Positions 41,627 through 46,447 of a DNA stretch of 64,000 nt are shown piece after piece. A program made the translations under genes and the position numbers. How positions within the stretch are numbered: position 1 is the stretch's first letter; each line of letters starts with the position of its first letter. The notes beneath the pieces are model-generated. The model saw only the letters and a list, made by a program, of their open reading frames with translations. It had not been told where the DNA came from and did not search any database. This DNA comes from Allostella vacuolata (GTDB lineage: Bacteria > Pseudomonadota > Alphaproteobacteria > ATCC43930 > Allostellaceae): the NCBI GenBank assembly GCA_006739055.1, contig AP019702.1, positions 3,745,388 through 3,809,387 on the forward strand, in the 5' to 3' direction.

Positions 41627-42727
41627 ATGGAAAGGCGTAGCTTTCTGCGCGGAACCGCGGCGGGCGCGGCCACGGCCATCGGCACGACCCTGGCCGCCCC
41701 GGCGATCGCGCAATCGGCGCCGGAGATCCGCTGGCGGATGACGTCGAGCTTCCCCAAGAGCCTCGACACGCTGTTCGGCGGCGCCGAGCTCGTCGCCAAG
41801 CGGGTCGCCGCGCTCACCGACAACAAGTTCCAGATCCGCGTCTTCGCGGCGGGCGAGATCGTGCCCGGCCTGCAGGCGCTGGACGCCGTCCAGGCCGAGA
41901 CGGTCGAGATGGCGCACACCGCCAGCTACTACTACGTCGGCAAGGATCCCACCTTCGCCTTCGACACCACCGTCCCCTTCGGCCCGAACGCGCGCCAGCA
42001 GTCCGCCTGGATGCACCATGGCGGCGGGCTCGAGCTGATGCGCGAGTTCTTCAAGCAGTACAACATCCTGAGCTTCCCCGTGGCCAACACGGGCGCGCAG
42101 ATGGGCGGCTGGTTCCGCAAGGAGATCAAGACGATCGAGGACCTGAAGGGCCTCAAGTTCCGCATCGCCGGCATCGCCGGCATGGTCCTGAGCAAGCTCG
42201 GCGTGGTGCCGCAGCAGCTGGCCGCGGGCGACATCTATGCCGCGCTCGAGAAGGGCACCATCGACGCCGCCGAATGGGTCGGCCCCTATGACGACGAGAA
42301 GCTCGGCTTCTACAAGGTGGCGCCGTACTACTACTATCCCGGCTGGTGGGAGGGGCAGGCGCAGCTCTCCGCCTACGTCAACCTGAACGCCTGGGGCAAG
42401 CTGCCGGAGCAGTACAAGGCGGCCCTGCAGTCGGCGTGCGCGGAGGCCTACACCGACACCCTGGCGAAGTACGACGCGGTCAACCCCGCGGCCATCCGCC
42501 GCCTCGTCGCCGGCGGCGCCCAGCTGCGGCCCTTCTCGCGCGACATCATGGCCGCCTGCTACAAGGCCGCGCACGAGCTGTATGACGAGACCGCGGCCAA
42601 GAATGCGAACTTCAAGAAGGTCTACGAGCCGTGGAAGAAATTTCGCGACGACGAGTACCTGTGGTTCCGCATCTCCGAGAACAGCTACGAGAACTTCGCC
42701 TTCACCGCCGCCCAGACGGTGAAGTGA
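41627..42727 (+). CDS. TRAP transporter substrate-binding protein, TakP-like
   Basis: A 366-aa periplasmic DctP-family binding protein. A Tat-type signal begins MERRSFLRGTAAGAAT. The mature sequence is strongly TakP-like: ASYYYVGKDPTFAFDTTVPF, QMGGWFRKEIKTIEDLKGLK, ALEKGTIDAAEWVGPYDDEK and APYYYYPGWWEG, in which the Arg and Glu-Trp pockets for a 2-oxo-carboxylate are conserved. Rhodobacter TakP binds pyruvate and other 2-oxo acids, probably as a metal-bridged complex. The permease genes lie directly downstream but on the opposite strand. A ligand of this class is inferred from family knowledge. Confidence 0.93.
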   Translation: MERRSFLRGTAAGAATAIGTTLAAPAIAQSAPEIRWRMTSSFPKSLDTLFGGAELVAKRVAALTDNKFQIRVFAAGEIVPGLQALDAVQAETVEMAHTASYYYVGKDPTFAFDTTVPFGPNARQQSAWMHHGGGLELMREFFKQYNILSFPVANTGAQMGGWFRKEIKTIEDLKGLKFRIAGIAGMVLSKLGVVPQQLAAGDIYAALEKGTIDAAEWVGPYDDEKLGFYKVAPYYYYPGWWEGQAQLSAYVNLNAWGKLPEQYKAALQSACAEAYTDTLAKYDAVNPAAIRRLVAGGAQLRPFSRDIMAACYKAAHELYDETAAKNANFKKVYEPWKKFRDDEYLWFRISENSYENFAFTAAQTVK

Positions 42728-42757: not shown

Positions 42758-44173
42758 TCACTGGATGAGGATCGGGACGGACTCGGTGTCGGCCCCTGGC
42801 ATCGGCGGAATGTCGATGCGGATCGTGCTGGGGTCGACCTCGGGGCCGCGGGTGATCCAGTAGGTCACCGCCTCCGGCCAGAAGATCACGATCGCCACCA
42901 GCACCAGCTGCAGCAGCAGCCACGGCACCGCGCCCCAATAGATGTCGCGGCTGCGCACGCTGGGCGGGGCGATGCCGCGCAGGTAGAAGAGCGCGAAGCC
43001 GAAGGGCGGGTGCATGAACGAGGTCTGCATGTTCACGCACAGCAGGACTCCGAACCACACCAGGTCGATGCCCATCTTGTCCGCGACCGGCGCCAGCAGC
43101 GGCACGATGATGAAGGCGATCTCGAAGAAGTCGAGGAAGAAGGCCAGGAAGAAGACGAAGACGTTGACGGCGATGAGGAAGCCGGCGACGCCCCCCGGCA
43201 GCCCCGACAGCAGATGCTCGATCCACAAGGACCCGTCGACCCCCTGGAAGACGAGGCTGAACACGGTGGAGCCGACCAGGATGAAGACCACCATGGCGGT
43301 GATCCGCATGGTGGTGTCCATGCCCTCCTTGATCAGCGGCCAGGTCAGGCGCCGGTTCATCGCCGCCAGCAGGATCGCGCCGACCGCCCCCATGGCGCCG
43401 GCCTCGGTCGGGGTGGCGAGCCCGAGGAAGATCGTGCCCAGCACCAGGAAGATGAGGGCGATGCACGGCACCATGCCCCACAGCACGCGCCGGATCAGCG
43501 GCCAGCCGCGCTCGGTCCGTTCCTCGGGCGGGATCGGCGGCATCCATCCCGGCCGGAAGACGGCGACGCCGGCGATGAACAGCACGAACAGCAGCACCTG
43601 GAGCATCGAGGGGCCGATCGCGCCCAGATACATGTCGCCGACCGAGCGGCCGAGCTGGTCGGCCAGCACGATCAGGACCAGCGACGGCGGGATCAGCTGG
43701 GTGATGGTGCCGGACGCCGCGATCACCCCCGTCGCCAGCCGCATGTTGTAGCCGTAGCGGATCATCGCCGGCAGCGAGATCATGCCCATGGCGATGACCG
43801 AGGCGGCGACGGTGCCGGTGATGGCGCCCAGCACCGCCCCCACGATGACGACCGCGACGGCGAGCCCGCCCGGGACCGCGCCGAACAGCTGGCCCGTCCC
43901 TTCCAGCAGGTCCTCGGCCAGGCCGCACCGCTCCAGCACCGCCCCCATGAAGGTGAAGAAGGGGATCGCCAGCAGCAGGTCGTTCGACATGATACCGAAA
44001 ATGCGGATCGGCAGGTTCTCGAGATAGTGGAAGGTGAACAGCCCCATCTCGATGCCGACGAAGCCGAAGAACAGCCCGGTCGCGGCCAGCGAGAAGGCGA
44101 CCGGGAAGCCGATGATGAGGAAGAGCACGAGGCCGCCGAACATCAGCGGCGCCATGTAGTCGAGCGGAGCCAT
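42758..44173 (-). CDS. dctM: TRAP transporter large permease (DctM)
   Basis: A 471-aa integral membrane protein of about 12-13 helices. DctM features are SNDLLLAIPFFTFMGAVLER, AVLGAITGTVAASVIAMGMI, YGYNMRLATGVIAASGTITQ with LIPPSLVLIVL following, and TPTEAGAMGAVGAILLAA. It belongs to the larger TakM/SmoG-like group with an extended C-terminus. It drives Na+-coupled uptake together with DctQ and the TakP-like protein. The ATG at 44171-44173 is 41 bp after the dctQ stop codon. It is convergent with the binding-protein gene. Confidence 0.92.
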   Translation of the reverse strand: MAPLDYMAPLMFGGLVLFLIIGFPVAFSLAATGLFFGFVGIEMGLFTFHYLENLPIRIFGIMSNDLLLAIPFFTFMGAVLERCGLAEDLLEGTGQLFGAVPGGLAVAVVIVGAVLGAITGTVAASVIAMGMISLPAMIRYGYNMRLATGVIAASGTITQLIPPSLVLIVLADQLGRSVGDMYLGAIGPSMLQVLLFVLFIAGVAVFRPGWMPPIPPEERTERGWPLIRRVLWGMVPCIALIFLVLGTIFLGLATPTEAGAMGAVGAILLAAMNRRLTWPLIKEGMDTTMRITAMVVFILVGSTVFSLVFQGVDGSLWIEHLLSGLPGGVAGFLIAVNVFVFFLAFFLDFFEIAFIIVPLLAPVADKMGIDLVWFGVLLCVNMQTSFMHPPFGFALFYLRGIAPPSVRSRDIYWGAVPWLLLQLVLVAIVIFWPEAVTYWITRGPEVDPSTIRIDIPPMPGADTESVPILIQ

Positions 44174-44214: not shown

Positions 44215-44754
44215 CTACTGCAGCGGCTTCTGATAGTCGACGTCGAGCGCGATCCGGCCGCTGAGCGCGGCGATGCGCTTCACCAGTTCCGAGAGGCCCT
44301 GCAGGGTGAGCATGGCGAAGGCCAGCGGCATCAGGATCTTGACCGGCCAGCGCAGCAGCCCGCCGGCATTGCTGGATCCCTCGCCGCGCTGCCAGGAATC
44401 GAGGAAGAACGGCCATGTCATCCAGGTCAGGATCGCCATCGCCGGCAGCAGGAAGAAGATCAGCCCGAGGATGTCGATCCACAGGCGGCCGCGCGGCGAG
44501 GCCATCGAGAAGACGAGGTCGACCCGCACATGGCCGTTCTGCCGCAGCGTCGTCGAGGCGCCGAGCAGGAAGATCCCGGCGAACATGTACCACTGGATCT
44601 CCAGCCACGCGTTCGAGCTGAGGCTGAAGGCATAGCGGCTGGCGGCGTTGCCGGCGCTGACGAGGCAGGCGAGCAGGACCAGCCAGGAGGCCACCTGGCC
44701 GAACGCGTCGTTGGCCCGATCGACCGCCCGGCCGATGCGCAGCAGGAAATTCAT
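44215..44754 (-). CDS. dctQ: TRAP transporter small permease (DctQ)
   Basis: A 179-aa membrane protein with four helices. Hallmarks are the N-terminal GRAVDRANDAFGQVASWLVLL, AWLEIQWYMFAGIFLLGAST and the conserved NGHVRVDLVFSMASPRGRLW loop, followed by DSWQRGEGSSNAGGLLRWPV. These match the TakQ-type small subunit. It is the first gene of the minus-strand dctQM pair and is divergent from the citrate-synthase-like gene 213 bp away, where both promoters must lie. Confidence 0.9.
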   Translation of the reverse strand: MNFLLRIGRAVDRANDAFGQVASWLVLLACLVSAGNAASRYAFSLSSNAWLEIQWYMFAGIFLLGASTTLRQNGHVRVDLVFSMASPRGRLWIDILGLIFFLLPAMAILTWMTWPFFLDSWQRGEGSSNAGGLLRWPVKILMPLAFAMLTLQGLSELVKRIAALSGRIALDVDYQKPLQ

Positions 44755-44967
44755 CGAAAGCGGCTCCAGAGGCGAACCCGCGGGTCCGCCAGCCGGCGGC
44801 GGTTGCGCGGTACGGGACGCCCCCGGTTGCGGCAGAGGCCGATGGGTGCGCGTCGGTGCGCTCCATATCCGCAACCGACCGGGCTTCACAATACGAAAAG
44901 AACCGATGATGCGGCCCGGCGGCAATTTTGCCGCAGCTGCGGGCCGGCTTGCGCCATATTCCACCCC

Positions 44968-46167
44968 ATGACCGGCAGCCGCCTGATCGACGCCGCAGAA
45001 GCCGTCCGCCGCCTGGGCGTGCGGCGCGCCACCCTCTATGCCTATGTCAGCCGCGGCCTGGTGCGGGCCGAGCCGCATCCGGCCGACCCGCGGCGCAGCC
45101 TCTATGCGGCCGAGGACATCGACCGCCTGGCCGCCGGACGGGCCCGCGGCCGCAGCCCGGGGCGCGCCGCCGCGACCACGCTCGACTGGGGCCTGCCGGT
45201 GCTCGATTCCGCGATCACCGCGATCGAGCGCGGCCGGCTCTTCTATCGCGGGATCGATGCCGTCGACTGGGCCGGGCACCAGGGGCTGGAGGCGACCGCG
45301 CGCCTGCTGTGGGGCTGCGGCGAGGCCGACCCGTTCGCCGAGCCGCCGCCGCCTGGGCGCTGGTCCATGACCGGTCTGCCCGCCACCGCCCCGCTGGTCG
45401 CCCGCTGCATGGCGCAGCTGGCCGCCGACGGGCTGGCGGAATCCGAGACCTGGGCGCGCGAGCCGGCCCGGCGCTGGGCGGGAGCGGCGCAGCTGCTGCG
45501 GCGGACGGCGGCAGCCACCGTCGGCCGGGCGCCCAGCGCCGATCCGATCGCGCGCGTCCTGGCCGGCGCCTGGGGCGCGGACGACGAAACGGCCGGCCTC
45601 GTGCGCATGGCACTGGTCCTGTCCGCCGACCATGAGCTGAACGCATCGACCTTCTCGACCCGGGTGGTCGCCTCGACGGGCGCGGCCCTGGCGGCCGCGG
45701 TGATCGCCGGCATGGCCGCCCTGTCGGGCCCGCGCCATGGCGGCATGACGCTGCGCGTCCAGGCGTTGCTGGACGAGGTGGCGGCCCAGCCCTCGGCCGC
45801 GGCCGCGATCCGGCGCCGCCTGGATCGCGGCGACCGGCTGCCCGGCTTCGGCCACCCGCTCTATCCCGACGGCGACCCGCGCGGACGCGCCCTGCTGGAC
45901 CGCCTGTCGCCCGACCGGGCGCTCGGAGACACCATGGCCGCCGCCCTCGACCTGACCGGCGAGGCGCCCAACATAGACTTCGCCCTGGTGGCGCTGGCGC
46001 GCAGCCGCGGCCTGCCGGCGGACGCGCCCTTCGCGATGTTCCTGGTCGGCCGCACCGCCGGCTGGATCGCCCACGCCCTGGAGCAGCAGGCGGCGGGCGG
46101 CCTGATCCGGCCCCGCGCCCGCTATGTCGGCCCGCCGCCGCTGGCGAACGGCCCGGCCACCCGGTAA
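44968..46167 (+). CDS. Citrate-synthase-like protein with N-terminal MerR-type HTH domain
   Basis: A 399-aa protein. Residues about 5-55 are a MerR-like helix-turn-helix (LIDAAEAVRRLGVRRATLYA, then YVSRGLVRAEPHPADPRRSLY). Residues about 75-385 are a citrate-synthase fold with the catalytic His in SADHELNASTFSTRVVASTG, the second His in GFGHPLYPDGDPRGRALLD and the Asp in EAPNIDFALVALAR. Overall length is shorter than standard GltA. The enzyme half may act as a citrate or methylcitrate synthase or as an acyl-CoA/2-oxo-acid sensor. It is divergent from dctQM, so it may regulate that transporter. Start ATG 44968. Confidence 0.85.
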   Translation: MTGSRLIDAAEAVRRLGVRRATLYAYVSRGLVRAEPHPADPRRSLYAAEDIDRLAAGRARGRSPGRAAATTLDWGLPVLDSAITAIERGRLFYRGIDAVDWAGHQGLEATARLLWGCGEADPFAEPPPPGRWSMTGLPATAPLVARCMAQLAADGLAESETWAREPARRWAGAAQLLRRTAAATVGRAPSADPIARVLAGAWGADDETAGLVRMALVLSADHELNASTFSTRVVASTGAALAAAVIAGMAALSGPRHGGMTLRVQALLDEVAAQPSAAAAIRRRLDRGDRLPGFGHPLYPDGDPRGRALLDRLSPDRALGDTMAAALDLTGEAPNIDFALVALARSRGLPADAPFAMFLVGRTAGWIAHALEQQAAGGLIRPRARYVGPPPLANGPATR

Positions 46168-46195: not shown

Positions 46196-46447
46196 ATGCG
46201 CGAGGTTGGGGCCGTCGAGGCCCAGGACACGCTCGACCAACTGCTCGACCTGGTCGAGCGCGGCGAACAGGTGGTGATCACCCGGCATGGCCGGCCGGTC
46301 GCCCGGCTGGTACCCGAGAAGCCGGCCAGGGATGTCGCGCCGGCCCGGGCGGCGGCCGACCGCATCATCGCCGACGCGAAGGCCCGCAAGAGCGGCCGCT
46401 TCGATCGGGAAGAGTTTCCACCGGTGGGCCCGATCTGCGGGGGATGA
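46196..46447 (+). CDS. Phd/YefM-type antitoxin, orphan
   Basis: An 83-aa protein of the Phd/YefM antitoxin superfamily. MREVGAVEAQDTLDQLLDLV then ERGEQVVITRHGRPVARLVP is the classic N-terminal DNA-binding part. The C-terminus (KARKSGRFDREEFPPVGPI) would neutralise a toxin. No PIN, RelE or Doc gene follows; the downstream 370 bp hold only a palindromic repeat. It lies 28 bp after the citrate-synthase-like gene and could share its transcript. It may act alone as a repressor or serve a distant toxin. Confidence 0.75.
   Translation: MREVGAVEAQDTLDQLLDLVERGEQVVITRHGRPVARLVPEKPARDVAPARAAADRIIADAKARKSGRFDREEFPPVGPICGG

Follow-up and report, generated by a model that had tools for sequence, protein, structure and literature searches.

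The window, the whole 64,000-nucleotide stretch of the Allostella vacuolata genome that we analyzed, encodes a protein in which a helix-turn-helix (HTH) is fused to a citrate synthase (CS) fold. We refer to it as HTH-CS. We propose, with a probability of roughly 0.75, that HTH-CS is a one-component regulator whose sensor derives from CS and which in this genome is orphaned from its target in cis and acts in trans. HTH-CS would then belong to a known class, the enzyme-fold one-component regulators.

HTH-CS joins a MerR-type winged HTH to a complete CS fold

A first-pass annotation had described a 399-residue protein that couples an HTH to a CS-like domain, and the open reading frame, Pfam matches, and a structure model all bear this out (Table 1). 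Pfam Citrate_synt (PF00285) matched residues 74 to 383 with an E value of 5e-59 (200.6 bits; cut-off, 27). The HTH of the window protein scored below the curated Pfam cut-offs, with 19.9 bits for MerR_1 (cut-off, 21.6) and 18.9 bits for HTH_17 (cut-off, 27). At an E value of ≤0.001, the HTH of family members matched HTH_17 in 48/49 cases, MerR_1 in 33/49, and MerR in 29/49. The structure model (mean pLDDT, 88.2; pTM, 0.79) has an N terminus with helices at residues 9 to 16 and 20 to 28, strands at 34 to 36 and 44 to 47, and a helix at 48 to 59, which is the order of a winged helix. Judged by its relatives and by this model, the window protein has an N-terminal winged HTH of the MerR type. Neither the profiles nor the model revealed a dimerizing coiled coil or a MerR effector domain in the window protein, and the remainder is CS. 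Foldseek returned CS and methylcitrate synthase as the top matches, with CS-II structures as the closest folds. None of the curated NCBIfam citrate synthase families reached its cut-off (best, NF009005; 160.8 versus 332).

TABLE 1 Features of the HTH-CS locus and the candidate distal target. Positions are those of the window, except for the last row.
Feature	Position	Strand	Basis
HTH-citrate synthase fusion (putative CitC-type regulator), 399 aa	44968..46167	+	ORF from ATG 44968 to stop at 46167
N-terminal winged helix-turn-helix, about residues 6-58	44983..45141	+	Pfam HTH_17 in family members; structure model
Recognition helix TLYAYVSRG, residues 22-30	45031..45057	+	Alignment, 98 rows
Citrate synthase domain, residues 74-383; active-site H222, H257, H296, R305, D337, R362, R381	45187..46116	+	Pfam, alignment, fold comparison
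Divergent gap, exactly 213 bp, HTH-CS to dctQ	44755..44967		ORF coordinates
dctQ, TRAP small permease	44215..44754	-	Pfam; context, outside the regulatory unit
dctM, TRAP large permease, start inferred	42758..44173	-	Profile match; context
takP-like 2-oxo-acid binding protein, convergent with dctM	41627..42727	+	Profile and PDB sequence match; context
Promoter-like block for dctQ, TTGTGA - 16 nt - GATATG on the minus strand	44864..44891	-	Alignment; the -35/-10 reading is ours
CaiB-type CoA-transferase, window's genome (G000)	C1:2477225-2478601 (L161 5223-6602)	-	PF02515

The annotation had also called the catalytic residues intact. We found that this holds, since the protein has all seven counterparts of E. 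coli GltA H229, H264, H305, R314, D362, R387, and R407 (numbering without Met). H222, H257, R305, D337, R362, and R381 were found in 98/98 aligned rows and H296 in 93/98, with Gln in the other 5. Each residue of the recognition helix was invariant in 97 or 98 of the 98 rows, and its presence places the window protein in the CitC-type HTH-CS family as we define it here. Because HTH-CS keeps a complete CS active site, it probably senses a CS-type ligand; that it retains catalysis is, in our judgment, unlikely. In stand-alone CS proteins encoded next to HTH-CS genes, Glu replaces the catalytic Asp in 61/67 rows (including L104, L105, and L106). Among the proteins matched by our search patterns (26 HTH-CS and 63 partners), the segment from the DPR motif to the catalytic Asp has 31 residues in 25/26 HTH-CS proteins versus 45 to 49 in 63/63 partners. 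This shorter segment suggests that the small domain is altered in HTH-CS.

We compared the window's genome (G000) with three genomes of the same genus (G001, G002, and G003). These carry HTH-CS genes at 66 to 73% identity and under constraint, which is more than chance. dN/dS was 0.36 to 0.39 in pairs with G000 and 0.32 to 0.39 in other pairs. Relative-rate tests disagreed: with G001 as the outgroup the window copy changed faster than the G002 copy (39 versus 23 sites; chi2, 4.1), and with G003 as the outgroup the reverse was found (23 versus 34). Taken together, the dN/dS values and the conflicting rate tests suggest that the window protein is maintained, with some relaxation of selection possible. 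Directly 3' of HTH-CS lies a gene for a Phd/YefM-type antitoxin (PF02604, TIGR01552; window positions 46196 to 46447, plus strand).

HTH-CS genes share an operator and a changing set of divergent partners

We scanned species genomes and, of 400 confirmed loci, used the 80 that match the window protein best. Bosea-like (18) and Caulobacteraceae (14) rows are over-represented among them. Together with 17 loci from genomes of the same genus or order, these 80 made 97 loci, or 96 distinct ones, as L109 duplicates L030. The divergent partner at the 96 distinct loci was a stand-alone CS (50% or more identity to the genus partner) at 62, a CaiB-type family-III CoA-transferase at 15, a cupin at 5, GltA at 4, prpB-prpC at 3, and a SAM methyltransferase and an ORF that we take to be DinB-like (L029) at 1 each. 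The prpBC pair, of the methylcitrate cycle, is the partner in Dyella. Three GltA partners (L111, L115, and L116) are 58 to 62% identical to E. coli GltA, and the fourth (L015) was called from a cut stretch of 124 aa with 44% identity; the partner gene of L085 is interrupted by stretches of N. The remaining 5/96 loci, all from Burkholderiaceae (L039, L047, L054, L056, and L099), have no recognized partner, which counts against a regulatory role. Their operators are decayed, with 1 to 4 mismatches in the core, a situation that parallels the window. On a tree of the family, the CaiB label had to change 4 times and the CS label 6 times, and CaiB adjacency arose in at least 4 places. These repeated changes suggest that the regulator was kept through a succession of different partners.

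Several neighbors recurred in small numbers. A 161-aa cupin gene was found beside HTH-CS at L113, L114, and L117 to L119, at L111, L115, and L116, and at L196, either divergent or right behind gltA. At L196 a DUF2332-like frame follows the cupin gene, and L197 has a DUF2332 gene in the divergent position. The SAM methyltransferases divergent from HTH-CS in L025 (a betaproteobacterium) and L203 (of the window's class) are 64% identical to each other.

We found a palindromic operator, TCAATMTTGATY-N6-ATCAA, at the start of the HTH-CS gene. Its core, TCAATMTTGAT, was exact in 63/97 loci (including the best 80 of 400) and had at most one mismatch in 91/97. At the latter threshold, the core was found in 0/362 downstream windows of the same loci and, after shuffling, in 0.2 of 97 loci. 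The base frequencies of the operator come from the 88/97 loci chosen for three or fewer mismatches and overstate its conservation.

We saw the same picture in 144 class genomes that were sampled separately and that may overlap the 80 loci. The 23-base operator pattern occurred with at most one mismatch in 28/144 genomes; the pattern read backwards gave 3 matches. The HTH profile identified HTH-CS in 17/144 genomes. A perfect operator was present in 11 of these 17 versus 0/127 genomes without HTH-CS (Fisher P, 1.3e-12), and all 11 have a copy at the HTH-CS start. Within 160 bases upstream of HTH-CS, a core with at most one mismatch was found in 15/17 genomes, the exceptions being the window's genome and G091. 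Within 1.5 kb of HTH-CS in the 17 genomes, we found CS in 8, GltA in 1, CaiB in 1, a contig end in 1, the window itself in 1, and none of these genes in 5. Among those five are a cupin gene in G179, a methyltransferase gene like that of L025 in G072, and a DUF2332 gene in G071. The five genomes without CS or CaiB and the missing operator in G091 count against a regulatory role. Our judgment, with high confidence, is that HTH-CS binds the predicted operator. A one-mismatch site was also seen in G006 (C2:147841), near MFS and LysR-like ORFs.

The window's genome has lost the partner gene and its operator

The first-pass annotation placed HTH-CS divergent from dctQM across 213 bp, and the distance is exact. 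In G002 and G003 the gene order is HTH-CS, divergent stand-alone CS, dctQ, dctM; in G001 the HTH-CS/CS pair occurs but no TRAP genes accompany it. Where the window has the 213-bp gap, G002 and G003 carry the family operator as well as the stand-alone CS gene, and the gap lacks both. None of the CS, CaiB, cupin, or prp partners is divergent from HTH-CS in the window; dctQ is found there instead. We found no operator in the 260 bases upstream of the window's HTH-CS, where the best core had 4 mismatches, which is the chance level.

In the tree, the window's HTH-CS nests within the genus as sister to that of G002 (support, 90/69; contained in starred sets of 3 and 4 rows). Since it nests among the copies of G001 to G003, all of which are paired with CS, the phylogeny indicates that the window's genome lost the stand-alone CS gene. 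G000 is a single contig of 5.83 Mb with four CS-like genes, namely HTH-CS, PrpC, GltA, and citryl-CoA lyase. The last three are at most 35% identical to the partner of the sister species, so we rejected a relocated partner: the gene is missing and has not moved. A search of the 213-bp gap for partner remnants yielded nothing above chance (best E value, 0.32 with tblastn and 0.10 with blastn).

The sequence CATATCCGC beside dctQ is common to the window, G002, and G003 in the alignment and is readable as a -10 element with a TTGnnA -35 element. This conserved block suggests that dctQM probably has a promoter of its own. The gap also contains a palindrome, GCGGCAA-TT-TTGCCGC (44927 to 44944), which is unlike the family operator and may be due to chance in GC-rich DNA.

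The annotation's TakP neighbor is indeed near and TakP-like, with 2hzk/2hzl (E value, 1.5e-139) and then 7ug8 (ketoacid-binding protein) as the top PDB sequence matches; we take 2hzl to be TakP, and the PDB record itself says SmoM. It is nevertheless not part of the dctQM transcription unit, because takP lies on the plus strand, convergent with dctM.

A distal CoA-transferase gene is a candidate target in trans

Across G000, a single operator site with fewer than three mismatches was found; in this genome-wide scan we treated sites with three mismatches, which made up most rows, as noise, and the pattern read backwards is a poor control for a palindrome. This site, TCAATGTTGATTGATCCGATCAA at C1:2478667, lies 65 bp upstream of a gene for a 459-aa family-III CoA-transferase (CaiB; PF02515). 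It carries one mismatch, which counts against regulation in trans. In G003, a perfect second copy of the operator precedes the CaiB orthologue (73% identity). In both genomes, the operator-bearing caiB gene is far from HTH-CS or on another contig. At 15/96 loci, and in one genome of the class sample (G041), a homologue of the G000 CaiB (41 to 62% identity) is encoded divergently from HTH-CS and the operator separates the two genes; G020 is a genome in which CaiB and HTH-CS are adjacent. G001 and G002 have only a CaiB paralogue (42 to 44%) without an operator site. G016 has a CaiB orthologue but no HTH-CS match and no operator site, and G022, which was cut, was uninformative. Beyond the CaiB/HTH-CS pair, we found no operon around CaiB that is conserved across groups. 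The operator at caiB in G000 and G003 and the occurrence of CaiB as a cis partner elsewhere together suggest that CaiB is regulated in trans, and we consider it likely that its gene is the target of HTH-CS in the window's genome. In the G000 CaiB, PF02515 matches only residues 204 to 396, with the first 203 profile positions; our impression is that the N-terminal 200 residues resemble the remainder of the fold, shifted to the start of the protein.

Alternative roles for HTH-CS

The first-pass annotation had proposed a metabolite-sensing regulator that binds the 213-bp gap and controls 2-oxo acid uptake through dctQM and TakP. A regulator that would sense through a complete CS active site survives in our interpretation; control of the transporter we now consider highly unlikely. 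That HTH-CS is directly divergent from dctQ in the window's genome, that HTH-CS, CS, and dctQM are neighbors in G002 and G003 too, and that the cargo of the TakP-like protein is a 2-oxo acid all argue for it. We rejected it as the main explanation because a CS gene intervenes between HTH-CS and dctQ in G002 and G003, the family operator is absent from the gap, a conserved block before dctQ looks like a separate promoter for that gene, and the linkage is missing elsewhere. At the best 80 of 400 loci there were no TakP or DctQ matches, and the DctM matches at 10/80 were only 27 to 33% identical and belong to unrelated permeases. The annotation itself had held that conserved linkage to unrelated genes in other genomes would speak against its proposal; we found HTH-CS conserved beside CS, CaiB, and other genes in other genomes.

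HTH-CS might instead be chiefly an enzyme (a synthase of citrate or methylcitrate, or a lyase working in reverse) with the HTH as a minor or structural add-on. Retention of the seven active-site positions and the closeness of CS-II folds fit such a role, which we nonetheless regard as very improbable: it leaves the invariant recognition helix and the matching operator unexplained, the small domain is altered, and the probable orthologue CitC fails in E. coli gltA mutants, where CitB supports growth, as reported in PMC7083601. It is also conceivable that the window copy is a decaying relic that regulates nothing after losing its partner and operator. Those losses, the faster change relative to G002 with G001 as the outgroup, and the decayed operators of the partnerless Burkholderiaceae copies point in this direction. 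Against it stand the intact ORF, HTH, and active site, a dN/dS like that of other pairs, and the operator retained at caiB and common to G003, and we judge a relic to be unlikely, if slightly less so than the two roles above.

A model for regulation by HTH-CS

We therefore favor a regulator that acts in trans in the window's genome. In this model, a winged helix of the MerR/HTH_17 type was joined to a CS fold that became, or doubles as, a sensor. Members of the family would bind the palindrome at their own start codon and control themselves and the divergent gene, most often that of a stand-alone CS and otherwise a CaiB-like CoA-transferase, gltA, prpBC, or cupin gene. Citrate synthases form dimers, which close around bound oxaloacetate. 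A CS dimer could hold two HTHs over the two operator half-sites, and ligand-driven closure would then alter the fit of the HTHs, most simply releasing repression. HTH-CS would thus most simply repress both its own gene and the divergent one, with a CS-type ligand either releasing or engaging it; we lean toward repression over activation. Having lost both its divergent CS partner and the operator in cis, HTH-CS is an orphan in the window's genome and may act in trans on the CaiB-type CoA-transferase gene through the site at C1:2478667.

More tentatively, members of this family in Alpha-, Beta-, and Gammaproteobacteria may be trigger enzymes. The intact CS would sense the oxaloacetate/acyl-CoA or (methyl)citrate state through its active site, perhaps while still turning over, and would set the expression of an alternative citrate synthase, the methylcitrate cycle, or a CoA-transferase. 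Partners would have been swapped repeatedly with the helix and operator fixed, and the orphan copy would keep a target in trans. If our model is correct, an enzyme fold of central metabolism has a dedicated role in sensing for transcription, and its defined operator makes this testable in Caulobacter. The transporter beside HTH-CS is the leftover of a deletion, an example of how linkage in a single genome can mislead.

Relation to known systems

MocR/GabR regulators carry a winged HTH fused to an enzyme-fold sensor and control a divergent gene of the same chemistry. HTH-CS would work in a similar way, with a MerR/HTH_17-type HTH and a citrate synthase in place of the GntR-type HTH and aminotransferase fold. 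It shares the N-terminal winged HTH and a palindromic operator with the MerR family (Pfam MerR, MerR_1, and HTH_17), in which a coiled coil and an effector domain are found; in contrast, the C-terminal half of HTH-CS is a whole CS.

In Caulobacter crescentus, CitC and CitB (CCNA_03758 and CCNA_03757) were described as adjacent CS paralogues, like HTH-CS and its partner, that are 33% and 30% identical to GltA, respectively (Berge et al. 2020; PMC7083601). CitB probably falls in the same group as the Glu-bearing partners, yet that paper reports that it complements E. coli gltA and that CitC does not. In C. vibrioides OR37 (L095), we found that HTH-CS is 32.7% identical to E. coli GltA (196 aa) and that the partner is 29.0% identical. 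The agreement of these figures with the published ones suggests that CitC is very probably HTH-CS, an orthologue matched through the OR37 proteins. In the passages of PMC7083601 that we considered, CitC is described solely as a non-complementing CS paralogue, and neither "helix-turn-helix" nor "MerR" appears anywhere in the text (0 occurrences). Our literature search, with subscription papers and preprints outside its scope, found no description of an HTH-CS regulator. A regulatory role, if confirmed, would explain why CitC is conserved despite its lack of citrate synthase action in E. coli.

The closest solved fold and sequence is Mycobacterium tuberculosis CitA (PDB 8gmf, 8gi7, and 6wgy), some entries of which hold pyruvate. 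Unlike HTH-CS, CitA is a stand-alone protein with no HTH, and the two are 28 to 30% identical in fold alignments.
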